A stretch of DNA of 34,962 nucleotides from an uncultured Fibrobacter sp. (GTDB lineage Bacteria > Fibrobacterota > Fibrobacteria > Fibrobacterales > Fibrobacteraceae): positions 1 to 34,962 of the forward strand of contig CAMJNF010000009.1 of assembly GCA_946407235.1 (NCBI GenBank), in the 5' to 3' direction. The stretch's first letter is position 1. The number at the start of each line of letters is the position of its first letter. The position numbers and the translations under genes are program-made. Under the pieces are notes generated by a model. It searched no databases. It was not told the DNA's origin and saw nothing but the letters and a program-made list of their open reading frames with translations. Shown here in pieces: positions 2,753 to 32,419 of this stretch.

Positions 2753-5170
2753 TTATTTCAAAAATCCGTATTGATAGACTTGGGGGCGGAGTTTTTCAGA
2801 TAGGGCCTTGTAGGCGGCTTCGAATGTGGCAAAGCTGACGGGAATGGAGTTGCCGGATTCGTTTTGTGCTTTTAAGGCTTGACGGATTTGATACCAGCCG
2901 ACATCGGGGCGGTTGAGTTTAAATTCTTCGCGGATTTTGTGGTTGAAAGATTGCTTGAAGTAAGCGGCCCAAATTTTCTTACCTTCGTCAAGGACCGCCT
3001 GCGCTTCGGCGCTGAAGGTTTTGCCTTCCATGTACTGCACCATGAAATCACTTTCGAAACGGTCGCTTGCTCCTACATCTTCTTCAGAAAAGGGTATAAA
3101 GTGATTGACGATGCTCCATTTTTTGCCATTCCATTCAAGATTGTTTGCACTAGCTGTGAGATTTTTTCCATGGAAAAGCATGTACATCAAACAATCGTCT
3201 ATAAATTCTTGTGAGAGTTCGCTGTTGGGTTGCAAGAATTGGTCGTTATGGTTAATCCAAGTATGGTCTATGAGGTGGCGAACGCTATACACTATAGCGA
3301 CCTGCCACATATTTTCTTTTGTAACATATAGTCCATGCCCGCCGCTATATCCTGAAGAAAAAATAGCGGTATCAGAAGAATGCTGAAAATCATTTGCATT
3401 AACAAAAAGATAACCAATCGCATTATCAGACCAAAACTTACAACGTAAATCTGTTGTACGAGAGGCCGGGGTAACGGCATTTTTTAATGGTAGAATTTCT
3501 TCATCATTATGAATAGGACGGTTAATCCAATCTGTTAAAAGTTTTGTATTCGGAATACTGTAATACTTCTTTTCTCCGATAGGATTTGCGCTCTTATCGA
3601 GAACTTCGCAGGAAATCTCTGAAGGAAATGTATATTTTGATTGTTTCACTTCGCTCGCAATGACGTTTGATGTTTTCCAAATAAGGAATCCTATCGGAAA
3701 GTCACCCTTGAGACCGTCAAATGATTTAGAGTGAACTATAAAACCGTTCAAATATTTTGCGAGCCAGTTTTGTCGAAATATTTCACATGTTTGTGAATTG
3801 ATGTATTTTAGTGTACTGAACATTGCTAGTGTAGCGTTAGGAATTTCCCGTGCAATTCGAGATACGAACTGTAAGAATAGCTCATTACTTGCTCGTCCAT
3901 ATGAGTTCATTCCAACACCTGCCCACTTCGTTTTATTTACGCCAATTTTATTTCCTTTTCCAATTCCATTTCCATTTTCTCCATACGGAGGATTTATCAG
4001 TACTAATAGTTTCTTCTTTCCATCGTTTGCATCGCGAAGGACATTCTGCAAAGTTTGTGGAATTTTATTCGTAAGGTCGTAATCAATTTTTCCGTCATCG
4101 GAAATGTCATCATTCAGATAATCGTATTGAAAACGCTCTGCAGACACGCAAATCTTTGCCGCTTTCATGATGTTCACGTCTTCCTGATCGAGGGTGCTCA
4201 TGAACAAATGACGGTGGTTGGAATGCTTAGCCTCAAGGTTCCCGACTCCGCAACACATATCCCACACGTAGTAATCCTTTTGCCAATTTGCTCCAAGCGT
4301 CTTTTCCAATAAGTCATAAGCCTTATCGACCACGTTGAGCGGTGTGTAGTACGCTCCTTTGAATGTTCGTTCGTCAACGGGAATTAAGCAATCGCGGCGC
4401 TCCAATAAGTAACTTCGAAATTCTTCTTTGGGCGGCCTATCGTAAATCGCCCAGAACTGGCTGTAACCATCCATACTCGCGATTTCGTAAGTTTTCCCGT
4501 TCAACAGGAATATCGGCTTATTGCCTTTGTGTAGCAACTCTGCAGACAAATGTTCGTGGGTACTGACCTTGCCATCACTCATCACATCGGCATAGAAAAA
4601 TTCTGCGTAGTTTTCGGGTTCCGCATTCACGATTTCTTTGCCGATTGTCTCGACCCATTTGTCAAAAACTTGCTTGAGGTTATCGGGTGTAATTTGCGTG
4701 CGAATGATTTCGCCATTCTCAATTGCATTCCGCAGAGTGTCGATGAATTCTTTCTCGTGCGTTTCTATGTTGAAACTTACAAAATGAGTTCCGATATACT
4801 GCGAAACGATATCTAGAGCGTCCTGCGTCACATCGCTTGCGGATTTGCCCCACTTGATGTGAACGTTCTTGTCTTGCAAAAGAGGAAGCGCAACGTCGGT
4901 TTTCATAATGGCTGCTTTGACACTATCGACCACGCAAAGGAATGGTGGAATGTGTTCGCCATCCTTGAGGGCTCGGTGGATGTAAAAAAGCAACTGCGTG
5001 AACATCTCGTAGAGAGATTTCTTGGAGCCGAACTTTGCTTCGAACCAAACTTCGCGTGTTTGAATATCGATTAAGTTTCGCTGAACCTGCTTAAGGTGCA
5101 GTGCCTTAATGTATTCTGCCTTCACATCTTCTTCGGACGAGGCTTTTTGTAGTCTTTCGAAAAGGCTCAT
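2753..5170 (-). CDS. N6-adenine DNA methyltransferase, probably single-chain R-M (type IIG-like)
   Basis: MTase motif I-like DMCCGVGNLE, motif IV NPPY (LVLINPPYGENG), GAYYTP; N-terminal 'LIDIQTREVWFEAKFGSKKSLYEMFTQLLFYI' consistent with a PD-(D/E)XK core. Confidence 0.75.
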   Translation of the reverse strand: MSLFERLQKASSEEDVKAEYIKALHLKQVQRNLIDIQTREVWFEAKFGSKKSLYEMFTQLLFYIHRALKDGEHIPPFLCVVDSVKAAIMKTDVALPLLQDKNVHIKWGKSASDVTQDALDIVSQYIGTHFVSFNIETHEKEFIDTLRNAIENGEIIRTQITPDNLKQVFDKWVETIGKEIVNAEPENYAEFFYADVMSDGKVSTHEHLSAELLHKGNKPIFLLNGKTYEIASMDGYSQFWAIYDRPPKEEFRSYLLERRDCLIPVDERTFKGAYYTPLNVVDKAYDLLEKTLGANWQKDYYVWDMCCGVGNLEAKHSNHRHLFMSTLDQEDVNIMKAAKICVSAERFQYDYLNDDISDDGKIDYDLTNKIPQTLQNVLRDANDGKKKLLVLINPPYGENGNGIGKGNKIGVNKTKWAGVGMNSYGRASNELFLQFVSRIAREIPNATLAMFSTLKYINSQTCEIFRQNWLAKYLNGFIVHSKSFDGLKGDFPIGFLIWKTSNVIASEVKQSKYTFPSEISCEVLDKSANPIGEKKYYSIPNTKLLTDWINRPIHNDEEILPLKNAVTPASRTTDLRCKFWSDNAIGYLFVNANDFQHSSDTAIFSSGYSGGHGLYVTKENMWQVAIVYSVRHLIDHTWINHNDQFLQPNSELSQEFIDDCLMYMLFHGKNLTASANNLEWNGKKWSIVNHFIPFSEEDVGASDRFESDFMVQYMEGKTFSAEAQAVLDEGKKIWAAYFKQSFNHKIREEFKLNRPDVGWYQIRQALKAQNESGNSIPVSFATFEAAYKALSEKLRPQVYQYGFLK
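3635..3667 (-). repeat. Dispersed repeat copy (GTCATTGCGAGCGAAGTGAAACAATC) inside the methyltransferase CDS
   Basis: Minus strand AACGTCATTGCGAGCGAAGTGAAACAATCAAAA encodes NVIASEVKQSK in frame; related copies at 5451-5480 and 29171-29193. Confidence 0.7.
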
Positions 5171-5193
5171 AAGGGCTCCTTCTAGCCCTTATG
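5168..5193 (-). promoter_or_regulatory. Hairpin containing the RBS and start codon of the methyltransferase
   Basis: Minus strand CATAAGGGCT-AGAAGG-AGCCCTTATG: perfect 10-bp arms, loop carries the SD (AGAAGGAG), 3' arm ends in the start ATG. Confidence 0.7.
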
Positions 5194-5194
5194 C

Positions 5195-5236
5195 AGTGCT
5201 GTCAATCCACGAAAAAAGCGTGGTGTCGAATGCACT
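5195..5236 (-). promoter_or_regulatory. Two-part stem-loop in the methyltransferase leader
   Basis: Minus strand AGTGC...CCACG-CTTTTTT-CGTGG...GCACT: paired arms 5232-5236/5195-5199 and 5219-5223/5207-5211. Confidence 0.45.
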
Positions 5237-5241
5237 TACTT

Positions 5242-5366
5242 GTTTCGAGGCTCTGGTAAACCTATTCCCAATAAGCACAAACGACCCACGCCCATTGCTG
5301 GACGTGAGTGTTCACCTTATTCTCGGGAATTTTTGAAATTTACCAGATTTCGAAACAGAGAATAAG
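5242..5366 (-). ncRNA. Candidate structured RNA / structured 5' leader, family unknown
   Basis: Stem 5242-5248/5350-5356 and 5252-5260/5339-5347; stem 5264-5275/5316-5330 with a 3-nt bulge; terminal stem 5284-5293/5300-5309 that pairs fully only as minus-strand RNA (two G-U pairs). Confidence 0.6.
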
Positions 5367-5450
5367 AGCTAACTCTACGTTAAACTCGGTACCCAATTCC
5401 TTGCGGTCTTGGGCTATGTCATAGTGAAATATATAAATATGCGGAATAGA

Positions 5451-5598: not shown

Positions 5599-6765
5599 AT
5601 GAAAAAAGTTGTTGCCGCAGCCACAAATATTGGCGAAGTTGATGTTTCGGCAAAGTCTGAATTTTCCTTGATTGATGAAAATATGCTCAAGTCGCGGATC
5701 TACACGATTCGTGGGCTTAAGGTAATGCTTGATGCCGATTTGGCTGAGATTTACGGGTATAGTACAAAGGCTTTCAATCGACAGGTCAAGAATAATATTG
5801 AAAAATTTGATGAAGATTTTCGATTTCAGTTGACAAAAGAAGAGTATTACGAAATTCTAAGGTGCAAAAATTGCACCTTAGAATTTACTGAAACTTATTT
5901 AGAGTTGAAAGAAATGACACTGAAACAGGGTAAGTATACAAAATATTTGCCCTTTGCATTTACCGAGCAGGGCATTTACATGCTCATGACGGTTCTTAAG
6001 GGCGAACGTGCTACAGCTCAAAGCAAGGCTCTTATCCGCCTTTTTAAGCAGATGAAGGACTACATTGTTGCTGAAAATCGAAGTTTGCTGGGTTCTGATG
6101 CTATAGCTCAAATTGCTTCACATACTGTTCAGAATACGAAGGATATTGCTGAAATTCGTGACGGTCTTGCCGAGACGCGTGAAGATGTTTCAGTGATGAA
6201 GTCGGACCTTCAAAAAGTTATGGAAAATTTCATTGATCCTAGCACTTTCAAACATTTCTTGATTTTGAACGGGCGTAAGCTGGAAGCGGATGTCGCCTAT
6301 ATGCAGATTTATGGCTTGGCAAAAAAGTCAATTACGATTGTCGATGATTACATTGGCGTGAAGACTCTGGACTTGTTGCGTGAAATTGCCAAGGGAGTTG
6401 CTGTAACGATTTATAGTGATGAATGTGGCTTTGAAACGTTAACGGATCGGTTGCAGAAGGATTTCTTAAAGGCACGCCCCGACATCTCGTTAAATGTGTA
6501 TGAAACGAACGGAAAATTTCACGACCGCTATATTTTCTTGGATTATGGATTAAAAAGCGAGAAATTATTTCACTGCGGGGCATCGAGTAAAGATGCTGGC
6601 AATAAAATCACTACGATTATGCAAATTGAATACACGGAAGCATATCACAACATCATTGCTATGCTAAAGGAGACTGCCAAAAACACGAAAACATCTTCGC
6701 TCGATAAAAGAACTTTAATTGATGAAAATGCCAATTTTAATGCTAGTACACAGAAAAGTACATAG
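5599..6765 (+). CDS. ORF6N-domain protein with C-terminal PLD-like domain; truncated C-terminus
   Basis: 'IYTIRGLKVMLDADLAEIYGYSTKAFNRQVKNNIEKFDEDFRFQLTKEE...YLPFAFTEQGIYML' is the ORF6N signature; C-terminal 'KFHDRYIFLD...FHCGASSKDAG' resembles an HxK/RxxxxD PLD half-motif. Confidence 0.8.
   Translation: MKKVVAAATNIGEVDVSAKSEFSLIDENMLKSRIYTIRGLKVMLDADLAEIYGYSTKAFNRQVKNNIEKFDEDFRFQLTKEEYYEILRCKNCTLEFTETYLELKEMTLKQGKYTKYLPFAFTEQGIYMLMTVLKGERATAQSKALIRLFKQMKDYIVAENRSLLGSDAIAQIASHTVQNTKDIAEIRDGLAETREDVSVMKSDLQKVMENFIDPSTFKHFLILNGRKLEADVAYMQIYGLAKKSITIVDDYIGVKTLDLLREIAKGVAVTIYSDECGFETLTDRLQKDFLKARPDISLNVYETNGKFHDRYIFLDYGLKSEKLFHCGASSKDAGNKITTIMQIEYTEAYHNIIAMLKETAKNTKTSSLDKRTLIDENANFNASTQKST
5852..5886. 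repeat. Perfect 16-bp inverted repeat with 3-nt spacer inside the ORF6N gene
   Basis: AAATTCTAAGGTGCAA-AAA-TTGCACCTTAGAATTT; encodes EILRCKNCTLEF. Confidence 0.95.
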
Positions 6766-8325: not shown

Positions 8326-9729
8326 TTAAATCTTTATCCTAATCTTCTTCTGCTTGTAAATTGATTGTCCGCCGTTGCACATGTATGCCATGGTGCAGAC
8401 GATGAAGAATGCGGGGAGGCAATTGAATCCGAAGATTTCGCCTGCGATGAGGATGGGGGCCCAGAGCGTGTTGCTTGCGCTTGCGAACACGGCGGCAAAG
8501 CCAAGGGCTGCGGCGAGTGCAACGGGCATTCCGAACATGCTTGCGATGAAGATTCCGAAGGTTGCGCCGATGGCGAAAAGCGGGGTGACGACACCGCCTA
8601 CGAATCCGGCGGAGAGCGTAAGAATCGTGAGTGCGAATTTCAGAATCCAGTCATACCCGGCAATCCCGGCGGCATTCCCTAAATCGGCGGCAGTTCCTAC
8701 AGCATTCGCGGCATCACCGGCAGCATTCGCAGAAGCAAAACACATATCCAACAAGTTTGTTCCAAGTCCAGCGTAACGTCCTTGGAAAAATACGAGTAGC
8801 AAAGCGCTTATTCCAACGCCCATAATGGCGATTCGCTTGATGTTGCTCGGGAACTTCTTTGCAAAGAAGTTTTGCGAGAGCCCGAGGAGTTTTGCAAATC
8901 CGCCACCGACAATTCCGAAGAGCACGCCCATCAGCGCGAGCTTCACGAGGAACTTGCCGTCAAGAGCTCCTTCGTTCGTGAAAATGCTTGCCGAGAATCC
9001 GCTCGCATCAAGAATTGAACTCAAATCCACACTGAACTTGTGAAAACCGAGCATGCTCGAAACTTTGCAGGCGGTGAATGCAGCTGCTGCGGCGGGTAAC
9101 AACGCGCCAAGTTCCAAATGACCGACGAGCAGAACTTCCAAAGCAAATGCTGTGGCTGCCATCGGGGCTTGGAAAATTCCGGCGAAACCTGCGGCAAGCC
9201 CTGTCACAAGCATGATGTGCGCTGCATTTTCGAATGGTAACTTTTTACTTATGTTGTACGAAAGTGCGGAGCCGATTTGCATAGCGGCGCCTTCGCGACC
9301 GGCGCTTCCGCCAAAGAGCTGCGTAAGCCAAGTGCTCACTGCTGCCATCGGGATTGCAACCAATGGAAAGTCGGATTCTTTGTTGAGTCCAACGGCGAAA
9401 ACTTGATCCATGCCGCGTTCCGTCCAACGGCCCCATTTCTTATAAACGAATACGATGGCTGCTCCGCCGAGAGCGAGTGCGGGAATGAAGTAAAGCGGGT
9501 TTGCATCGCGGATTGCAGAAAGTCTGTCGCTGATATCGCCGAAGCATGCGGTGAGTGCGCCGATGATGGCTCCGAGTGTGATTCCTATCACCACGAATGT
9601 CGGCGTGGCGAACCACTTGAGTAACTTTTCTTTAACGCGGGCTTTTGCCATCTTCATCATCTGTTCTTTCATCTCTGGGCTGAACTGATTGAACTGTTGG
9701 CTCGCCTTGCTAAAATCGCTGAAATTCAT
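8326..9729 (-). CDS. ClC-family chloride/fluoride transporter (possibly CLC-F type)
   Basis: GGSAGREGAAMQIG (ClC selectivity motif) and multiple hydrophobic helices. Confidence 0.85.
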   Translation of the reverse strand: MNFSDFSKASQQFNQFSPEMKEQMMKMAKARVKEKLLKWFATPTFVVIGITLGAIIGALTACFGDISDRLSAIRDANPLYFIPALALGGAAIVFVYKKWGRWTERGMDQVFAVGLNKESDFPLVAIPMAAVSTWLTQLFGGSAGREGAAMQIGSALSYNISKKLPFENAAHIMLVTGLAAGFAGIFQAPMAATAFALEVLLVGHLELGALLPAAAAAFTACKVSSMLGFHKFSVDLSSILDASGFSASIFTNEGALDGKFLVKLALMGVLFGIVGGGFAKLLGLSQNFFAKKFPSNIKRIAIMGVGISALLLVFFQGRYAGLGTNLLDMCFASANAAGDAANAVGTAADLGNAAGIAGYDWILKFALTILTLSAGFVGGVVTPLFAIGATFGIFIASMFGMPVALAAALGFAAVFASASNTLWAPILIAGEIFGFNCLPAFFIVCTMAYMCNGGQSIYKQKKIRIKI

Positions 9730-9932
9730 GAAAAATCCTTTTTATGCAACGAAAAGTTTTCACAAAAATAGTTAAAACGGAACGTCTTGTTCCATTTTTT
9801 CTCGCGTTGTCAAATGCTCAATCCTTTTACAACGAGAGTGTTTAAAAAATAGCTTTTGCAAAACTTCAGAATGTATAATTAGGCAAAGGATTGGATTGTG
9901 GTGTATCGCTCTAAACAGCTAAGGGAATAAAT

Positions 9933-14247: not shown

Positions 14248-17200
14248 ATGCTGCACCTAAAGTTTGCGTTGAATCTCAATAATCTCGCTGATAAAATGAT
14301 CGACGAGATTTCTCGTTGTTGGAAAAATCCGTTTGAAGCTCCTGTTATCGTCTTTCCGGATCCCAAGATGGAACAGTGGTTTCGCTTGCGCTGGGTGCAA
14401 AAAAAAGGTGTTCTTGCGAATCTGAACAATAGCATGATTGACCGGTTTCTTTTTGAAATTCTGGTTGGCGATAACGATCAGCTCAAGAAACTTTCATCGG
14501 ACATGCTTGCGAATGTCATTATTTCGTATCTGCAGCAAAAAACGGGTGAAAAATTCAATTATGAACTTATAGGCGATAGCGTCAAATCGTATCTCGAAAG
14601 TGATGGCGTTATTGATGAAAATCGTCTTTTCGATTTTGCGAATGTCGTTGCGGGGCTTTTTCTGGAATACGAAACGAGCCGTCCGAGCGGTTTTATCGCG
14701 GATTCGGAAACGGGCGAAAGCGCAAAGGGAATTCTCGATTGCTGGAAACAGGGGGAGCTGCGCGATTTCTTCTTGATGCGGGACGGAAGCCCGGTCGCAA
14801 ACGAGGAATGGCAACGCAAGCTGTATTCTGCGGTTTTTCATGCCGATGGAAAGGATAAATCGCTGTTATCGCAGGTGTTTGAAAAATCAGCGGAAAAGAA
14901 AGGCAAGGATGTAACCTACTTGACGCTGCCGTATCTGTATGAAGCGTGTAAGGATAAAAATGGCAAGGCGAAATTTCATTACGATAGCGACCTTCCTGTT
15001 TTTATTTTTGGCCTCTCGGGGATGGGGCAGTTCTATCGCGTTATTTTGCAAGAGTTTTCTCGCAATCATGAAGTCTATGCTTATGTGCAAAACCCTTGTA
15101 TGGCGTTTTGGGAAGATTGCAGTGGCGTCCGGAAACCTCTGGAAAGCATGCGTCTTGCGGTTCCTGCTCTTGCAACGGATCCGACTGACGAAAGCGAACT
15201 GATTGACGAAAATGAAAACGAACTTTTGAGATATTGGGGTAAGGCCGGCCGCGATAACATTAAGCTTTGGAGTATTGCTACCGATTACAACTTTGTTTTT
15301 GATGGAGATTCCATTGTAGACCGCAACAGCGAAATGCCTTGCGATACACTCTTGCATAACGTGCAATGGATGATTGCAAATCGAAAGAATTGCTTCCATG
15401 AAAATTCAAATATTTTGAGCAGGGCTCCGTTCAAAGATGATGAGTCCTTTAGCGTAACGACGGCTCCATCGAAGATTCGTGAAGTCGAAGCGCTGCATTC
15501 GCACATTTGCCGCCTGCTTTCTGAAAAAGATGAAATGGGGCATCCGAAAGCAAATATTGCGGATATTCTCATTGTGTCTCCGAACATTGACGATTATCGC
15601 ACTGCGATTTTCCAGGTGTTTGACCAGACTCGTGATGGTTTCCACATCCCGTTTAACATTGTCGATTCTGCCGCTCGCGATTCGTTGACGGCGAATGCGC
15701 TTGCGATTCTTTTTTCTATTCGTGAAAAGGGTACGCTTTCAAGACCGGACTTTTTTGCGCTGATGCGAAATCCCGTGGTGCAAAATGTCCGTAGAATTCA
15801 TGCGGATGAAATTTCCGATTGGCAGTCTTGGACGACCAACATGAATATTTACCGCGACCGCATTGCCGATGATAATGGTGTAAAACGTTGCGAAAAATCT
15901 TGGATTACGGCGACTAGGCGCATTTTGCTTTCTCGCTTTAGCTATGGTGGAGTGCAATCGGAAGAGGGTGAAATTTTGCCCTATAGCGATATCAGCAGCA
16001 GCGATAGCAATTCGCTGTACCGCTTTGTTGACGCGATTGATTCACTCGAAAGCTGGATGGATAAGGATGCCTGGGAAAAGAAATATGGTTCGCCCGACGT
16101 GTCTGCAGAAAATCTTTCTGCGGTTTACCAGTTCTTAGATTCTTGGCTTTGCATGGGAAATCCGCCCAAGGAACTGGCGGGCGAAAGCGTTATTTACCAG
16201 TCGATTGCGTCTGCCCGTGAAAATTTGGAATACCAGTATTTCGCGGGTAGTGAAACGATTTCGTTCAAGTGTATTTCGCAAACGTTGCTTTATGCGGCGC
16301 GAGGTTCGGAATACAGTTGTGGTAGTGTTTTCATTAACGGGCTTACGTTTATGAAGTTCGCTCCGAACCGCATTGTGCCGACAAAATACCTCTTCTTTAT
16401 CGGGGCTGATGCCGCGAATTTCCCTGGAGTCCGCAATACGAATACGCTGGATTTGCGGAAGTCTTGCCGCCCTTGGCCGGGCGACGATTCGGTTGTGTGC
16501 AGAAATCGTTATGGATTCCTTTGCGAACTCATGAGCACATCGGACGGATTCTTTATCAGTTATGTGAATAAGGACTTGCAAAAGGATGAAGATTTTTATC
16601 CATCGTCCATCGTGAATGATATCCGCGGATTCTTGCGGAATGCGCTTAAAGCGTCTGGCGTAAACGATTCCTCGGTTTTGAAAAATCTATGGCCCGATAT
16701 TAATATTCCGCTTGATGAAACGCGCTCTTGGGAATCGCTTTACACTCGCCGAGAAATTCGCAATAAGAATGCTCATTTGGAATTTGGCAATGATCGCTTG
16801 GTAGTCAATTTTACGCCCGATGAAGAAAGTGGCGGAGACCCGCGCCTTCCAGAACAAGTGAATATTTATCAGTTCAAGGAGTTCCTTAAGGATCCGTTTG
16901 AATTCCGTGTGGGTCAGATGATGCAAATCGAAGAAGAAAAGGAAGATCCCGAAAAAACGGAATTTGAGCCTGTTGTTGCCGATAATTTGCAAGTGTCTAT
17001 CTTGCGTCGAATGCTCTTGGCGCAGAAATTGGGCGTTTATGAAAACGAGCATTTGAAAACGGAAGAAAATATTCGTCTTTATGCAATTTCTAAGGGCCTT
17101 CTGCCAAAGAGTTCTTTTGGTGAACGTGTTTGGAACGACATTTATGACGAAATCAATTGCTTGGCGCACTTTGTTGAAGGCTTGTATAACCGCAACGAGT

Positions 17201-17814
17201 TCCAATACGGACGCCGAGCGATTGAATTGAAAATGAATGGATGGACGCTTTTGGGAAATATTTCCTTGCTCACGCAAAACGAAAAATGTGTACACTTGAT
17301 TGAAATTGCGGGCGTCAATATTCATCCGTATCATTTCTTGGCGGGGTATATCCAGGCGCTGGCCCTTATTTGCGAAGCGGATCGGAAAAAGGAACCGTTG
17401 CCCGAGATTTACGTGGATTGCTATTCTAAGACAACATGGCAATCGAAGCGTATCAATCGCTCTCCGGCAGACGCAGAAGCTCTGCTTGAAAAAATTTATC
17501 GCAAGATGTTTACGGTGCAGATGGATCCGTGCGGCAAGTGGGGACGCTACAGTAAAGTCCTCCCGATTGATATGGTGGATGATGATAAGATTGAATCTTA
17601 TGACGATTACATTAATGCGTTTAAAGATGAAAATAATTCACCTTGGAAATATTTTGCTGGTCGCAAGCTTTTTGATGTCAAAAAAGTTTGCGGTTTCCCG
17701 GAAAAATATTTTATGGATCTTTGGGAAAAAGAAGTTGTTGATCTCAAGAATTTGACGCCGGATTTGTGGATTCCCGAGAATGATAGGGGAGGTGTTGTCG
17801 ATGTCGCAGATTAA
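14248..17814 (+). CDS. recC: Exodeoxyribonuclease V gamma chain RecC
   Basis: N-terminal 'FPDPKMEQWFRLRWVQKKGVLANLNNSMIDRFLFEIL' RecC-type; operon with recB and recD. Confidence 0.85.
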   Translation: MLHLKFALNLNNLADKMIDEISRCWKNPFEAPVIVFPDPKMEQWFRLRWVQKKGVLANLNNSMIDRFLFEILVGDNDQLKKLSSDMLANVIISYLQQKTGEKFNYELIGDSVKSYLESDGVIDENRLFDFANVVAGLFLEYETSRPSGFIADSETGESAKGILDCWKQGELRDFFLMRDGSPVANEEWQRKLYSAVFHADGKDKSLLSQVFEKSAEKKGKDVTYLTLPYLYEACKDKNGKAKFHYDSDLPVFIFGLSGMGQFYRVILQEFSRNHEVYAYVQNPCMAFWEDCSGVRKPLESMRLAVPALATDPTDESELIDENENELLRYWGKAGRDNIKLWSIATDYNFVFDGDSIVDRNSEMPCDTLLHNVQWMIANRKNCFHENSNILSRAPFKDDESFSVTTAPSKIREVEALHSHICRLLSEKDEMGHPKANIADILIVSPNIDDYRTAIFQVFDQTRDGFHIPFNIVDSAARDSLTANALAILFSIREKGTLSRPDFFALMRNPVVQNVRRIHADEISDWQSWTTNMNIYRDRIADDNGVKRCEKSWITATRRILLSRFSYGGVQSEEGEILPYSDISSSDSNSLYRFVDAIDSLESWMDKDAWEKKYGSPDVSAENLSAVYQFLDSWLCMGNPPKELAGESVIYQSIASARENLEYQYFAGSETISFKCISQTLLYAARGSEYSCGSVFINGLTFMKFAPNRIVPTKYLFFIGADAANFPGVRNTNTLDLRKSCRPWPGDDSVVCRNRYGFLCELMSTSDGFFISYVNKDLQKDEDFYPSSIVNDIRGFLRNALKASGVNDSSVLKNLWPDINIPLDETRSWESLYTRREIRNKNAHLEFGNDRLVVNFTPDEESGGDPRLPEQVNIYQFKEFLKDPFEFRVGQMMQIEEEKEDPEKTEFEPVVADNLQVSILRRMLLAQKLGVYENEHLKTEENIRLYAISKGLLPKSSFGERVWNDIYDEINCLAHFVEGLYNRNEFQYGRRAIELKMNGWTLLGNISLLTQNEKCVHLIEIAGVNIHPYHFLAGYIQALALICEADRKKEPLPEIYVDCYSKTTWQSKRINRSPADAEALLEKIYRKMFTVQMDPCGKWGRYSKVLPIDMVDDDKIESYDDYINAFKDENNSPWKYFAGRKLFDVKKVCGFPEKYFMDLWEKEVVDLKNLTPDLWIPENDRGGVVDVAD

Positions 17815-20800
17815 ACTTTTCGATATTAAAGAGTTTCATTTTGGAGACAACCTTTACATTGATGCATCGGCGGGAACGGGCAAGACATACACCATCCAGC
17901 AGTTGGTGGCGAAATTGGTCCGTGGCGAAAATCGCCATGCGGGGATTCCTCTTTCTAAAATTCTGATTGTCACGTATACGGATAAGGCCACAGGTGAACT
18001 TCGTGACCGCATTCGTCAAAAGATGGAAGATTGCCTTGCCGAAGAAAACTTGGAATGTTATCGCGAGGCTTTGCAGAATATCCATACGGCTCCGATTTTT
18101 ACGATTCATTCTTTTTGTCAAAAAGTCTTGCATGATTTTGCGTATGAAGCGGGCTCGTCATTTAATTTGGATGTTGTTTCAGATGATGGTATAAAGAATC
18201 TAATCCAGAGGCTCGTTCGAGATAAGTGGTCGTATGAAAAAGATTTTGTGAATCTGCTTTATGCAACGGACTTTAAAATGGATTTGTTCGTCTCGAATTT
18301 TGTGAATGCCGCCAATCGCATTTTGCAAAATCGCGATGTGAAATGTTTTTCGCCAGATTATAGTTCGCTAGAAGGAATTTTTGAATGGGTGCCGGGTGCA
18401 CGCGATGCATGGAATGTCTTGCTTGAAAATAAGGACGAAGTTTACGAAGAAGTCCTCAAGACGAAAACGAATAAGCTGAAATTGTCGGATTTTATTGATG
18501 CGATAAAAGCGTATGATGGAACTGGAAAACTTTTTCCGGGGACGAAATTCAAGTCGAAATGGCGCGGTGTCTGGGGTTCTGATGAGTTGAATAACGCTGT
18601 GGATCTTCTTTTTGAAATCAAGGACATGGATTTGCAAAAAGATTCTATTAAACTTTTCCAACAGTTTATATTCAATCATGTGGATGAAGTCGTTGCGCAG
18701 TGGCAAAAGGAAAAGCGCGATAGTAAATCGCAATCCTTTAGCGATATGATTAACGCGGTTCATGATTCCATTATGAACGAAAATGGCGCTCTTGTCCGCA
18801 AATTGCGCGAAACCTACCGCTATGCGATTATAGATGAATTTCAGGACACGAATCAGTTGCAGTGGGATATTTTCAAGACGATATTCTTGAATGTCCCGCA
18901 AAATGAAGGTTTTCCCGAAAATAACATCGTAGTAGTGGGCGATCCGAAACAGTCGATTTTCTCGTTTCAAGGAGCGGATGTCGATGTTTACCGTCGTGCC
19001 ATCGCTGAAATTGGCGATAAGAATGGTCGTCGTCTTTCAACGAATAACCGTTCGAGCGATGATATCATTGATGCCTGCAATGAACTTTTCCAAGGAGATT
19101 TTTTTGAAAATGGAGAGTTTAAGAATTCCGAGACGCCTCCTGAAGAACGCAAAAAGCTATCGCCTGCTTTGAATGGTGAAGCAACGCCGCCGTTTTGGAT
19201 TTCTTATTTGGCGGATGAATATGAATTTGCCGATTTTGCAGTGCGAAAGATTGTGGAATGTTGCGCGCCCAATGCAAACGACAGTTCAAAAACGTCTTTG
19301 CAGGTTTACGATAAAGAGAAAAAAGGCCTGAGGAATGTGCGCTTTTCGGATTTTGCAATTCTTTCGCGCACAAGAAGCGAAATGGAAGCGATGGAAGCTG
19401 CCATGGCGCAAGTCGGCATTCCTTATACGCGCTATAAGGATTCGAACTTGTTCTACGGAAAGGAATGCGCTCATTGGATTTCGCTTTTGAAAGCGCTTGA
19501 TGCTCCAGATTTTTCTAGTTGGAATCGAAAATTCTTGAACGAAGCTCTTGTCACGGATTTTTTTAGAGTTCCGCTAGATTCTGTCGAAAATGAATCATTT
19601 GTGTACCCGACGGGACATGTAATGAATTTGTTTGTTGTATGGCGCCAGCTTGTTTCAAAGAGGCGCTGGGCGGAGTTGCAGGAGAGCATTTACCAGGAAA
19701 CAGAAATTGACAAGTATTTGAGTACACCTGCGACTTTGCAGCAATTGGCAAAGGTCAAACAAATTGGTTCGTATATTTTTGACTACTTGTACAACAATCA
19801 TGTTTCGCTTGAGGAAGTTATAAAGCATTTGCAAGGGCTTGCGGGTGCTTCGGAAAATGTTGACGATGCGGATGGAAACTTGGTGGCGAAGGGGAGCGAT
19901 TTTGATGCGGTGAACCTCATGACGATCCACTCCTCAAAAGGCCTTGCGTTTCCGATTGCCATTATTACAGGCGGGCTTCGTGGCGACAGCAATCGCAAAG
20001 AACGTGAACCTTATGCGTTTAGTGCCGATGGTCGAAAATTCATTGGCTTTGATGCTAGCGTATCGCGTACAACGAGCAAGCAAGAAGACCATGCGGAATG
20101 GCGCCGCTTGATTTATGTGGCCTATACGAGAGCGGAAGCTTTGATGATTGTTCCGCAGTATAAAATCTGGTATAAAGAAGAGAAAGGCAAAGAGGACGAA
20201 ATTCAAACGGATGAAAATGTAAAATGGACGTTGAAGGAATCGAATCCGTTTGCTTTCTTGGCGAGTGCGGTAGAGCGCATGACGCATACAAAATACGCTC
20301 GAATGCCCAAAGAAGATTTTTACGCTACTGCTGATTATGCCGCATTGAAAAAAATGGTAACACAGATTTTGCAGAATGCGAAAAAAGAATCGCTTGATAC
20401 AAGTTTGTTGCCTGATTTCAAGAGCTTGCAAAGTCGCGTGGATGACGCTTGTATCTACCAGTATTCTTATTCTAGCTTGGCCTCTAAAAAGCGCGTACTT
20501 GAAAGTAGAACGGAATCGCGTTATCTTGAAAATGCAGATATCTCGGTTGATGGAAATCGCACAAATCGCGAAGAAGTTTACGAGTCCGAAGCAAATGCTC
20601 TCGATATTGCCTTGACGCCGATTTCGAGGGAGCTGAAAAGCATCATGATTGATGATGCTTCTGCTGTAGTGCAGCCCTGTGAAAACTACGACCGAAATGC
20701 GATTGTCGCCAATATTGCGAATTACCCGCGAGGTGCGAATTTGGGTGATGCGTTGCATAAGGTATTCGAGAATCTGGATTTTGAAACGATTGGTAATCTG

Positions 20801-21469
20801 GCGGATGAAAATGCGGCTTGCGAAAATGCTTTGCTCCGTAACTTGATTACGGATATGTATCAAGGAAATTCTATTCATATTCAGGAACATCCGGAGTGGA
20901 ATAAGCTGACTGCAAGTTTTGTCTGGAATACGATGAATGCTGAATTCCCCGAAGTTCATGGCGGCGTGGCAACCGGGAAGAATTTCTCTCTTAAGGATTT
21001 GCCGGCAAAATCTCGCCGCGCAGAAATGGGATTCCATTTGGATAGTCATGATTCAAAGGAATCCTCTTGGGTGAATTGCCTTTGCAAGGGTTTTATAGAC
21101 TTGATGTTTGTCCGCAAAGGTGAAAATGGTGAAGATTACTATTCAATTCTAGACTGGAAATCCGATGTCATGGACGATGCGGAATACAGCGACAAGACTT
21201 CGCTTTCTCGAAAAATCGAAGAAGATTATTCTGTGCAACGAGTCCTTTATTCTTATGTGCTAATCAAGTGGCTTAAACAGTTCTACGGCGGTATGACTGA
21301 ATCGCAAATTTATGACAACCATTTTGGTGGCATTTATTATGCACTTGTTCGCGGGACAAAAGCCAACACTTGCAATGGTATATATTGCCAAACTTGGAAA
21401 AGCTTTGATGACCTTGAAAACAGTTACCGCAATGTAACGGCATTGATGAAACGCGGCGTGAGGGAGTGA
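17801..21469 (+). CDS. recB: Exodeoxyribonuclease V beta chain RecB (UvrD-like helicase/nuclease)
   Basis: Walker A DASAGTGKTYTIQ, 'AIIDEFQDTNQLQWDIF', 'VGDPKQSIFSFQGADVD', nuclease motif 'SILDWKSD'. GGGGAGG RBS supports ATG 17801 over 17780. Confidence 0.9.
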   Translation: MSQIKLFDIKEFHFGDNLYIDASAGTGKTYTIQQLVAKLVRGENRHAGIPLSKILIVTYTDKATGELRDRIRQKMEDCLAEENLECYREALQNIHTAPIFTIHSFCQKVLHDFAYEAGSSFNLDVVSDDGIKNLIQRLVRDKWSYEKDFVNLLYATDFKMDLFVSNFVNAANRILQNRDVKCFSPDYSSLEGIFEWVPGARDAWNVLLENKDEVYEEVLKTKTNKLKLSDFIDAIKAYDGTGKLFPGTKFKSKWRGVWGSDELNNAVDLLFEIKDMDLQKDSIKLFQQFIFNHVDEVVAQWQKEKRDSKSQSFSDMINAVHDSIMNENGALVRKLRETYRYAIIDEFQDTNQLQWDIFKTIFLNVPQNEGFPENNIVVVGDPKQSIFSFQGADVDVYRRAIAEIGDKNGRRLSTNNRSSDDIIDACNELFQGDFFENGEFKNSETPPEERKKLSPALNGEATPPFWISYLADEYEFADFAVRKIVECCAPNANDSSKTSLQVYDKEKKGLRNVRFSDFAILSRTRSEMEAMEAAMAQVGIPYTRYKDSNLFYGKECAHWISLLKALDAPDFSSWNRKFLNEALVTDFFRVPLDSVENESFVYPTGHVMNLFVVWRQLVSKRRWAELQESIYQETEIDKYLSTPATLQQLAKVKQIGSYIFDYLYNNHVSLEEVIKHLQGLAGASENVDDADGNLVAKGSDFDAVNLMTIHSSKGLAFPIAIITGGLRGDSNRKEREPYAFSADGRKFIGFDASVSRTTSKQEDHAEWRRLIYVAYTRAEALMIVPQYKIWYKEEKGKEDEIQTDENVKWTLKESNPFAFLASAVERMTHTKYARMPKEDFYATADYAALKKMVTQILQNAKKESLDTSLLPDFKSLQSRVDDACIYQYSYSSLASKKRVLESRTESRYLENADISVDGNRTNREEVYESEANALDIALTPISRELKSIMIDDASAVVQPCENYDRNAIVANIANYPRGANLGDALHKVFENLDFETIGNLADENAACENALLRNLITDMYQGNSIHIQEHPEWNKLTASFVWNTMNAEFPEVHGGVATGKNFSLKDLPAKSRRAEMGFHLDSHDSKESSWVNCLCKGFIDLMFVRKGENGEDYYSILDWKSDVMDDAEYSDKTSLSRKIEEDYSVQRVLYSYVLIKWLKQFYGGMTESQIYDNHFGGIYYALVRGTKANTCNGIYCQTWKSFDDLENSYRNVTALMKRGVRE

Positions 21470-21471
21470 TT

Positions 21472-23445
21472 ATGGCAATCGAAAAAGTAAATGTTGATGG
21501 TTCGGTAGCTGAATTTTTTGAATTGCTCCGCGAAATGCGCGGGATTACTCCGATTGCTGAAAAAATGCACAAGTTGCTTTGTGATTTGCAGCAAAAACCT
21601 GCAATGAGTACGTCTGCGCAAAAGGTTTTGTACATGTATCTTTCGCTTTTGGAAGATGGCAATACGCGAATCCCGCTAGATGAAAAAATGCTTTTTGCAA
21701 AGTGGTCGCAAAAGTGGAATGGGCTTGTCGTGCAGGCGGAAAGTCGCGATGCGCTGCGGGGCTTTAAACGCGATGAATTGTATCTAAGTGCCGATGCTTT
21801 TTTGCCCATCATTCGTGATGGCGTTCAAGATATTCTTTTGAAAGGCTATTCGCAGATTATTGGCGATGATTCGACTCTATTGCATTTGCAAGAAACTCCT
21901 CAATGTCGTTATTTGATTTCGTCAAAGCATCTAGAAGATAAAATTCATATCGAAAATATTTTCAAGTCCGGAATCTTTAAGGAATCGGTGATTGAAAGTG
22001 ATGCGGTTCCGCAAGCGAAAGAATTTGTTCGAAGCTTGTTACGCGAAGGCTCGCCGATTGATTTTGACGATCGACAGGCTGAAGTGATTGCCCGTGGTGC
22101 CTTGCAAAACCTGATTATTACGGGCGGTCCAGGAACTGGGAAAACGACCGTTATCGGTTTTTTGCTGTGGAAACTTTTTGCAAGTGATGCCCGTTATTTA
22201 AACTGGGATTTGTTTATGGCGGCGCCGAGCGGAAAAGCGGCAGACCGACTTGCCGAAAGTATGGAAGATACTTTGCATGAAATTTCGGAAAACGTGCGGA
22301 GTGAACATCCTGAGTTTGTTGAAAAACTTGCAAAAACTTCAAGCTATACATTGCATCGACTTTTGAAATATAGCGTTTCGAAAGGTGGATTTACTTTTAA
22401 TGCCGGTAATCCGCTTCCAGAAAAGGCTATTTACATCATTGATGAAGCGAGCATGATTGATGTGTCGCTGTTTGCGGCATTTTTGCAGGCGCTCCCGCCT
22501 AGCGGTGATTTTAAGCTTTTTATTTTGGGGGATCCGAATCAGTTGCCATCGGTTGATGCTGGGGCTGTGCTCGGAAACATCCTGGAATTCGATCGTAATT
22601 TTGTGGTGAAACTTATTCGTTCCAATCGCTTTAATGATGATTCTAAAATCGGTGTACTTGCCGGAAGAATCCAACGCGGCGAGAACATCGTTTTTGAAGC
22701 ATCTCCGTTTGATTCGCGTGAAGCCTATTGGGAAACTCGCGATAGCGTGAATCTTTTGGATTTGGATGGCGACCGGAATCTTTCCCGCAAGGAAGAATTG
22801 CGTTCAGTCGAAGCTTTGGTGCGCAAGTGGACAAAAAAGTTTTACGCCCCGCTTTTGAGTCTCGCTGCTTCTGTCAATCCTGATGTTCCTGAAGAATGTG
22901 TTTCATCGGAGCAATTAAGTATTTGCGAAAAACTTTGGAATGTTGCGAATCAAGCGCGAATTTTGTCTGCAGAACGTCGTGGCAATCGCGGTGTTGAAAT
23001 CTTGAACCAGATTGTTTCGGAAACGCTTACGCAAAGCACTGCAACGCGCTTTGTAGGGCAAATTTTGATTTTCAACCGTAATCAGAATGAATTCAAGCTC
23101 TATAACGGTGATACGGGAATCGTGGTGCGCTCCGAACGGCACGAACAGCTTTTCTTGATGCTGAAAAAACAGTCTAGGTTCAGCTTTTTCCCGCTTTCGT
23201 ATTTCCCAGAGGATTGCTTGGAGAGTGCGTTTGCGATTACAATTCACAAATCTCAAGGTTCTGGCTATCCGAACATTTTGATGTTCTTGCCTACGCGCAA
23301 AGGTCATCCGCTTTTGAATCGTCAAATCCTTTATACGGGGGTGACCCGTACGAAAAAACAGAGCCTTACGATTGTGGCAACGCCTGAAACATTCAAGGCT
23401 GCTTGCGAAACCGTTATCGAGCGCGATACGGGTATAGCGCTGTAG
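21472..23445 (+). CDS. recD: Exodeoxyribonuclease V alpha chain RecD
   Basis: 'LIITGGPGTGKTTVIGFLLWKLF', 'IIDEASMIDVSLFAAFL', 'ILGDPNQLPSVDAGAVLGNI', 'FAITIHKSQGSGYPNILM'. ATG at 21472; the ORF track uses GTG at 21466. Confidence 0.9.
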   Translation: MAIEKVNVDGSVAEFFELLREMRGITPIAEKMHKLLCDLQQKPAMSTSAQKVLYMYLSLLEDGNTRIPLDEKMLFAKWSQKWNGLVVQAESRDALRGFKRDELYLSADAFLPIIRDGVQDILLKGYSQIIGDDSTLLHLQETPQCRYLISSKHLEDKIHIENIFKSGIFKESVIESDAVPQAKEFVRSLLREGSPIDFDDRQAEVIARGALQNLIITGGPGTGKTTVIGFLLWKLFASDARYLNWDLFMAAPSGKAADRLAESMEDTLHEISENVRSEHPEFVEKLAKTSSYTLHRLLKYSVSKGGFTFNAGNPLPEKAIYIIDEASMIDVSLFAAFLQALPPSGDFKLFILGDPNQLPSVDAGAVLGNILEFDRNFVVKLIRSNRFNDDSKIGVLAGRIQRGENIVFEASPFDSREAYWETRDSVNLLDLDGDRNLSRKEELRSVEALVRKWTKKFYAPLLSLAASVNPDVPEECVSSEQLSICEKLWNVANQARILSAERRGNRGVEILNQIVSETLTQSTATRFVGQILIFNRNQNEFKLYNGDTGIVVRSERHEQLFLMLKKQSRFSFFPLSYFPEDCLESAFAITIHKSQGSGYPNILMFLPTRKGHPLLNRQILYTGVTRTKKQSLTIVATPETFKAACETVIERDTGIAL

Positions 23446-30946: not shown

Positions 30947-31040
30947 GTGCAATAGCGATCGTTTCCTTCGATTGGACTAATGCTCCTTGCGTTATAGAGG
31001 GGCTGTTTTTGAGGGATTGGAAAATCAAAAGCTTTTTACT
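30947..31040 (-). pseudogene. Winged-helix fragment similar to the 29351-29725 gene
   Basis: Minus-strand translation SKKLLIFQSLKNSPSITQGALVQSKETIAI aligns with SEKELLILQALKNNPYITQGEMAQSLGMD. Confidence 0.65.
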
Positions 31041-32419
31041 CAGACAATTAAATTTCTTTTCAAATTATTTTCTTCTTCGCGCATCGCTGCCCGAAATTTT
31101 TCAAAGCTCCCTTTTATCTCGGGAACTGTAAATGGCATGATGGTCAGCTTGATTGAATCGTCGTTATAAAGCGTCAAACTTGATGCTCGGTGCGTCTCAT
31201 TGAACTTTACGGGATGAATTAAGAACCCCTGTTTTGATTTAAATCTAAACAGGTAGGCTAGCATTTGAAATGCATCATCGCGGCCTAAACCGCCATTTAG
31301 TTGCTTATACTTGGCGTCGATAATTGCTGTTGCTGAATCTACTTGGCCTTTTGCCGTGTTGCAACCTATCATAAAATCGGGGAAAACCCAGCGTCGATTT
31401 TGATGGCCGTCATTCTTGAATAGATATTGAGCCCCTTTGCCTGTTCTATTGTTGGGGTGGCGCAATTTCTCCTTGAATTGTTCTTCTAGCACGATATTCA
31501 AGTATTCCTCCCAAAGACTTGCTCCGTCAAATAAAATTCCGTTTATTTGATGTTCTGAATTTTCACCATAACTTAACTTTTTATGCATTAGAATAGCAAT
31601 GCATAACTTGCGTAGGGGCTCGTATGCTGTATAATAGGGATGTGTTATTGGACGGAGATTTTTTGAGATAATTTGTTGACGGGTATTTCTGCTATAGCTT
31701 GATGTAGCTTGTTCGATTGCTTTTACATTATCAAATGTTTCGGAATAAACATCGCTGCCTAAAATTGACTTTCCGAAAGAACGCAAACGGATATATTCAA
31801 TTGTGTGGCGTATCAACTGTGTGATGTTGTTATCCGTAGTGTATTCGCGTGTATGGTATGCGACCTTTCCATTGAAAGGAATGTTATACCGTATATGACG
31901 AGCGATATCGATTGGACCACGAACATTTGCATCGTTGTATTCTCGAGTTACGTATGCTCGATAAACGCCTTGTTTTAAAGCGTTGTTCAAGTAACCGGGG
32001 AACAGATAATACAAAAAATCAAAGAAAGAATCTTCGCCTGCATCGGTTCGTGGCGTGTATGCTACATTACAAATCTTTTGCAACATGTAGTGTAAAAAGT
32101 AATTCTTGTCATTTAAATCAAAACGCGAAGTAATATTGACTCGGATGTCGTTCTTGAGACTTATGAAGCCCATTATATTGCCTGTAGAAATCCTCGGCGT
32201 TGTTTCGTCTGAATAATCTACATTGAAAATAGCATCGTTATCTTTTAAATCTAATTCCTTTGAAAAGGGAGGATAGATGATGAATCTGAATTTTTCACTG
32301 GCTAACGATTTTAAATCTTTTCCGGCAATGCTGTCTAAAGCTCTTCGAATTTTTTCGGGAGACGAATCAAGAGCGAATACTTGATTTTGCGTATTGTCTT
32401 TTAGAGTAATTAACTTCAC
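31040..32419 (-). CDS. mcrC: 5-methylcytosine restriction system component McrC
   Basis: PD-(D/E)XK core 'VFPDFMIGCNTAKGQVDSATAIIDAKYKQL'; coupled to mcrB (2-nt gap). Confidence 0.85.
   Translation of the reverse strand: MKLITLKDNTQNQVFALDSSPEKIRRALDSIAGKDLKSLASEKFRFIIYPPFSKELDLKDNDAIFNVDYSDETTPRISTGNIMGFISLKNDIRVNITSRFDLNDKNYFLHYMLQKICNVAYTPRTDAGEDSFFDFLYYLFPGYLNNALKQGVYRAYVTREYNDANVRGPIDIARHIRYNIPFNGKVAYHTREYTTDNNITQLIRHTIEYIRLRSFGKSILGSDVYSETFDNVKAIEQATSSYSRNTRQQIISKNLRPITHPYYTAYEPLRKLCIAILMHKKLSYGENSEHQINGILFDGASLWEEYLNIVLEEQFKEKLRHPNNRTGKGAQYLFKNDGHQNRRWVFPDFMIGCNTAKGQVDSATAIIDAKYKQLNGGLGRDDAFQMLAYLFRFKSKQGFLIHPVKFNETHRASSLTLYNDDSIKLTIMPFTVPEIKGSFEKFRAAMREEENNLKRNLIV

Follow-up and report, generated by a model that had tools for sequence, protein, structure and literature searches.

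A leader RNA with two exclusive folds, a putative transcription attenuator, precedes restriction-modification genes in the Fibrobacteraceae

Control of restriction-modification (R-M) genes is usually ascribed to C proteins, antisense transcription or phase variation, and D12-methyl and similar candidate RNA motifs are known to precede methyltransferase genes. The closest described systems in terms of design are the transcription attenuators of the trp type and those controlled by TRAP or ANTAR proteins, which combine four strands, two exclusive folds and an intrinsic terminator just upstream of the gene, and the riboswitches, in which the folding of the leader decides termination and one class can stand before many genes. 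Here, a leader RNA with a similar layout is described from Fibrobacter, a bacterium of the rumen and gut. It is encoded on the minus strand of a 34,962-nucleotide (nt) stretch of an uncultured Fibrobacter sp. (contig CAMJNF010000009.1 of assembly GCA_946407235.1, positions 1 to 34,962; hereafter, the window), ahead of a DNA methyltransferase gene. The best explanation suggested by the sequence is that this leader represents a new family of transcription attenuators, a kind of regulator already known, which would gate readthrough into R-M and other accessory genes.

An initial annotation of the window had placed a long structured hairpin of no known family in the 5' leader of the methyltransferase gene. 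All of its arms are found in the sequence: GTTTCGA (5242-5248) with TCGAAAC (5350-5356), TCTGGTAAA (5252-5260) with TTTACCAGA (5339-5347), ATTCCCAATAAG (5264-5275) with CTTATT-CTC-GGGAAT (5316-5330), and a terminal stem at 5284-5309. That annotation missed the terminator, the four-strand switch, the larger unit and the family-wide distribution. Sequence comparison delimits a conserved unit at 5211-5420, which extends beyond these arms and ends exactly at a U-run, where most full-length blast matches to other copies also stop, or stop nearby; from the inferred 5' end at 5420 to this U-run, a leader RNA of ~209 nt is predicted. Its four strands, A, B, C and D, can form either A:B together with C:D, or a single long hairpin containing B:C. 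Six U come directly after C:D, a predicted intrinsic terminator, and the long hairpin would be the antiterminator. The two features that define an attenuator can thus be read from the sequence: a predicted terminator between promoter and gene, and an exclusive antiterminator that uses strand C of that terminator. It is highly likely that the 5' leader of this R-M gene holds a bistable transcription attenuator, that the hairpin annotated initially is its antiterminator form, and that the element belongs to a family of Fibrobacteraceae leader RNAs not described before.

Both folds are right, that is, the long hairpin of the initial annotation and the pair of hairpins that RNAalifold returned in its place from an alignment of 27 homologous copies. 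Each strand of the invariant core has two pairing partners. Among the 27 homologues, the 48 pairs of the long hairpin are 93.0% paired and include 103 cells with double-sided changes, against 33 in shuffled alignments (0 of 500 shuffles). A second alignment, of 109 distinct homologues, was not fitted to the terminator, and in it C:D is 95.2% paired with 45 double changes against 7.5 when shuffled (0/500); slid controls reached 33-54% for C:D and 32-57% of cells overall. In the same alignment, the A:B helices (columns 41-49 with 92-109) are 94-97% paired. Homologous leaders therefore do keep the pairing, the lack of which had been named beforehand as grounds for abandoning the idea of a structured RNA.

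The fold energy of the hairpin on the minus strand, -55.4 kcal/mol (z = -7.96), was matched by none of 200 shuffles. Because the plus strand folds less well (-41.7 kcal/mol, z = -5.1), the minus-strand reading proposed initially proved right. Cells with G-U pairs outnumber those with A-C by 790 to 47 in the antiterminator fold and by 277 to 5 in the other fold, and this excess in both folds indicates selection on the minus-strand RNA. These counts also bear on the possibility that the element acts as DNA, as a mobile inverted repeat or recombination site (attC-like, a miniature inverted-repeat transposable element or an insertion sequence end) carrying defence cassettes. In favour of this, the element occurs in many copies, always adjoining accessory, horizontally variable genes, and near copies ~5 kilobases (kb) apart flank a two-gene system in four loci (L058, L065, L066 and L068). 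However, the G-U excess points to selection on a single strand of RNA; promoter, orientation and spacing to the start codon are kept among copies, a fixed arrangement that speaks in particular against a transposable element or insertion sequence end; the neighbouring second copies are themselves full matches to the family model; and no match was found in phage or plasmid records. Integron attC core sites have the form RYYYAAC...GTTRRRY, whereas the outer arms GTTTCGA...TCGAAAC run opposite to it, a comparison for which no search aimed at an integrase was made. A DNA-level element is thus extremely improbable.

Several points weigh against the attenuator interpretation. The alignment of 109 homologues was fitted to the antiterminator structure, so its antiterminator counts (94.6% paired; 972 double-change cells against 302 in shuffles) lean that way. 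The covariation of A:B weakens towards helix 1, a 5' extension that is less conserved (58% paired); with this extension included, A:B is 86.6% paired, with 30 double-change cells against 12.5 when shuffled (0/500). Since the copies are related sequences, none of these shuffle counts is a probability. The terminator fold of the window copy is 7 kcal/mol worse than its antiterminator, and therefore without an effector the terminator may rarely form. Finally, no ligand site or effector was identified for the leader RNA.

The two arms that connect A to B and C to D are hypervariable among copies, yet always mutually complementary (median -31 kcal/mol within each copy). In the window, the 5' variable arm (5325-5357) is complementary to 5242-5268, and one of its pairs shows 66 double-change cells. 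Each arm also holds a small hairpin, HP1 (GAAA...UUUC) and HP2 (GG...CC), with conserved stems and complementary loops. These stems are kept although they are mostly unpaired in the long hairpin, and the closing pair of HP2 takes four standard pair types among copies. Contact between the two loops probably nucleates the zipping of the arms. The idea that the arms are orthogonal barcodes, selected against cross-talk within a genome, found no support, as trans pairing energies are equal within and between genomes (-10.1 vs -10.4 kcal/mol, orthologous copies included).

In the proposed mechanism, RNA polymerase would start at about 5420, as judged from the conserved promoter, and strand A of the nascent RNA would pair first with strand B. 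After synthesis has passed C and the 3' variable arm, the complementary arms would zip together with B:C into the long hairpin. Because this hairpin holds C, D could not complete the terminator, and transcription would enter the gene. If zipping were blocked or A:B stabilized, C:D and the six U would form the terminator, and transcription would stop at about 5212, leaving an RNA of ~209 nt. Nascent folding in silico follows a similar course: at lengths of 110-150 nt the minimum-energy fold contains A:B, and from ~160 nt on it contains the long hairpin. At full length, the antiterminator is the more stable fold by a median of 8.6 kcal/mol among 83 copies, the terminator winning in one. As the computed resting state of the window copy is readthrough, its default is probably readthrough as well, and the regulated step probably termination induced by a signal.

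A sister class of the switch, of ~240-258 nt, is extended in the apical loop by a structured domain of ~65 nt, which could be a sensor domain. Copies of this class (L163, L165, L166, L173, L174, L176, L180, L198 and others) stand before genes for FISUMP surface proteins and C5 methyltransferases. Of 20 insert-bearing copies, 15 have the terminator as their minimum-energy fold, so the balance between the folds is real and tunable. Separately, a natural copy with the 3' half and the terminator deleted is found in locus L051 (G032:C26, ~9670-9853, minus strand), where the 5' half is directly followed by the ribosome-binding site that serves a three-gene system (443/543/543 amino acids). It may be a constitutive variant.

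With respect to the described attenuators, the present RNA differs in the hypervariable complementary arms with paired loop hairpins, in the genes under its control, R-M and surface proteins rather than metabolism, and in having no conserved leader peptide. The last difference concerns the possibility of ribosome-dependent attenuation of the trp or erm type, in which a leader peptide would overlap strand A. Even though the four-strand layout is that of the trp attenuators, an ATG-started frame covers the beginning of strand A in only 1 of 53 scored copies, 17 have no frame there, and neither the frames nor their lengths are conserved, which makes this mechanism very unlikely. Slightly less remote, though still quite unlikely, is a leader for processive antitermination or transcript stabilization, similar to the lambdoid put sites or EAR, where the RNA modifies the polymerase or protects the mRNA. 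A single conserved leader before many long operons, with the long hairpin as its resting fold, would be in line with it. Nevertheless, a processive mechanism needs no conserved local terminator, yet C:D and the U-run are kept with compensatory changes.

Within the attenuator interpretation, the trigger is tentatively placed, at somewhat less than an even chance, with a shared trans-acting RNA-binding protein. A purely kinetic switch, or a fixed partial terminator that limits the expression of costly genes, is a less probable possibility. A small molecule appears doubtful as the signal, and feedback of the terminated RNA on the leader that gave rise to it more doubtful still. Contrary to riboswitches, this leader matches no described Rfam aptamer class and has no conserved unpaired core of the kind typical of a ligand pocket. 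The coordinates of the features are collected in Table 1.

Table 1. Predicted features of the leader and its downstream gene in the window
Feature	Position	Strand	Remarks
Promoter -10 element, TATATT	5433-5428	minus	7 nt upstream of the inferred start; of 99 aligned copies, most have a TATATT-like AT-rich block at the same spacing
Inferred transcript 5' end, G5420 (GACATAG)	5420-5414	minus	GACATAG in 85/99 copies
5' hairpin P0	5414-5391	minus	arms covary between copies in the alignment; seen in folding
Strand A, ACGTAGAGTTAGCTCTTATTCTC	5380-5358	minus	partner of B in the terminator state
5' variable arm: outer 5' helix strand, HP1 (GAAAU-CUGGUAA-AUUUC), inner 5' helix strand	5357-5325	minus	
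Strand B, GAGAATAAGG...CACTCACGTCC	5324-5299	minus	partner of A (terminator state) or C (antiterminator)
Strand C, GGGCGTGGGTCGTTTGTGCTTATT	5294-5269	minus	partner of B (antiterminator) or D (terminator)
3' variable arm: inner 3' helix strand, HP2 (AGG-UUUACCAGA-GCCU), outer 3' helix strand	5268-5242	minus	
Strand D, AAGTAAGTGCATTCGACACCACGC	5241-5218	minus	terminator 3' strand
U-run, UUUUUU	5217-5212	minus	directly 3' of the terminator; U-rich tract in the copies listed
Antiterminator, the initially annotated long hairpin	5242-5356	minus	fold energy and covariation
Hairpin CATAAGGGCT-AGAAGG-AGCCCTTATG over ribosome-binding site and start codon	5168-5193	minus	possible translational layer
Downstream gene, 805-amino-acid DNA methyltransferase	2753-5170	minus	motifs DMCCGVGN and NPPY

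The nearest gene on the same strand starts 42 nt past the U-run. Its product holds the S-adenosylmethionine-binding and catalytic motifs of the N6-adenine DNA methyltransferases (DMCCGVGN and NPPY, respectively), which agrees with the element being located in the leader of a methyltransferase gene. This protein gave a weak match to the PADLOC model MTase_II and none to Pfam, NCBIfam, PHROG or PDB entries; it is probably an R-M enzyme. Among 111 fetched copies with a downstream open reading frame (ORF), a set ranked by similarity to the window, the genes encode HsdM of type I systems (24), type IIG/ISP enzymes (16), type III Mod (15) and the methyltransferase family of the window (13). Other products are MmeI-like, EcoRI-type and D12 methyltransferases, a DrmD-like helicase, a PLD/SNF2 helicase, DUF4417, EndoU and NERD proteins. 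In a less biased set of eight near-complete genomes, with 57 matches and some genes assigned by blast to a tested relative, the 51 copies examined precede 25 R-M genes, with every type represented, 8 FISUMP surface protein genes and 18 others or unknown; because of these counts, the RNA is strongly associated with R-M genes and not exclusive to them. Conversely, 7 of the 25 HsdM genes of these genomes have the RNA no more than 140 nt upstream, and an eighth lies behind an HsdR gene with the RNA in front.

The initial annotation had left open whether the element is a cis-regulatory leader or an independent small RNA. An independent RNA, whose ~209-nt terminated product acts in trans and has only an incidental gene downstream, would explain the own promoter and intrinsic terminator, and the complementarity of the arms within each copy would let a terminated molecule pair with its own nascent leader. 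Against this, 100 of the 111 copies end no more than 130 nt from the next same-strand ORF, with gene starts called by a simple rule of heuristic start codons, and the ORF families are mutually unrelated. A free small RNA would also have no need of a conserved antiterminator competing with the terminator, and the equally weak trans pairing within and between genomes gives no sign of selection on it. An independent small RNA is therefore given a low probability, and the leader is favoured because the element is fixed just upstream of many gene families and its terminator competes with the hairpin. The terminated RNA is nonetheless an expected by-product of the attenuator, so the two options are not exclusive.

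Several of the downstream loci hold features of their own. A hairpin TAAGGGCT...AGCCCTTA that covers the start codon and the ribosome-binding site is common to unrelated gene families, being found at 5168-5193 of the window and in other HsdM and methyltransferase leaders. With start codons assigned heuristically, stems of at least 9 base pairs over the start codon are present in 32 of 140 copies against 21 of 420 control positions, and a second, translational layer of control is possible. A described RNA, ssNA-helicase (RF03070), has a stem that resembles this hairpin (CATAAGGG...CCCTTATG; 12.6 bits, E 8.7, for a gathering score of 41.5); a search for RF03070 in 41 genomes gave no match, and neither did the search control. 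In the four loci with near copies mentioned above, a full switch precedes type III Mod/Res pairs, and ~5 kb further on another copy, which has diverged more, stands before the next gene. L063, L035, L036 and L051 carry the switch on a three-gene system (443/543/512-543 amino acids), whose first gene has a TM2-like stretch and no clear Pfam or PADLOC match, and which is a candidate new defence system. The DUF4417 proteins, with a nuclease-like PHROG match, and a TPR protein in L161 are likewise candidates.

A DNA search with 5170-5420 matched 86 of 112 Fibrobacteraceae genomes, often several times each, and a covariance model built from the 27 copies was found in 90 of the 112, covering 6 of 11 genera with up to 18 copies per genome. 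Beyond this family, just two other genomes of the phylum match. An exact 22-base core retrieved 52 stretches in species-representative genomes, 48 of them in records under the names Fibrobacter, Fibrobacteraceae or Fibrobacterales. Among these is Fibrobacter intestinalis ATCC 43854, which carries two copies of the element (L232 and L234). The other four are short gut-metagenome-bin contigs that bear the labels Bacteroidales (two), Clostridia and archaeon and may have been binned wrongly.

No known family accounts for the element, as initially noted. Rfam gave no match at gathering score in the window and just four at chance level up to E = 10, and the RNA precedes many unrelated families, unlike motifs of the D12-methyl type, with which it shares a position before DNA methyltransferase genes. 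At gathering score, nine other loci of the element gave one tRNA and nothing else. In the window, covariance models for 6S RNA, RNase P, signal recognition particle RNA and transfer-messenger RNA (tmRNA) had no match, and no tRNA or tmRNA was found. No paper linking Fibrobacter and a leader RNA was found, with thin coverage of subscription journals, so that an earlier description is possible; surveys of structured RNAs and attenuators held nothing relevant.

One structured leader thus stands before restriction systems of types I, II, IIG and III, before a DISARM-like helicase and before FISUMP surface proteins. It would give unrelated defence systems an RNA regulator in common. Because the same switch precedes many different defence genes family-wide, the Fibrobacteraceae seem to gate much of their R-M arsenal with a single RNA device, whose four-strand swap with variable self-complementary arms is an unusual attenuator design. 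A family-wide defence regulon, in which the switches before all R-M types and the surface proteins are flipped by a single signal (phage-induced arrest, for example, or an RNA-binding protein that they share), is a speculative and on balance unlikely extension. If true, much of the arsenal would be turned up or down together at transcription termination. The leader raises the testable question of what Fibrobacter sense before transcribing restriction genes.

The genome of the window holds a second copy, upstream of a C5-cytosine methyltransferase gene. Directly upstream of both copies lies a divergent gene for an ORF6N-domain protein (5599-6765, plus strand, in the window; L258, 1963-2961, plus strand), and the one in the window matches the candidate defence model PDC-S05. 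A repeated palindrome, GTCATTCCCGCGAAGGCGGGGATCTCC, is located just upstream of the promoter in many copies (e.g., L033, L043, L045 and L160). Elsewhere in the window, a gene with a weak McrC-like match is found at 31040-32419 (minus strand), and RecC-, RecB- and RecD-like genes stand in a row at 14248-23445 (plus strand), as in a RecBCD operon.
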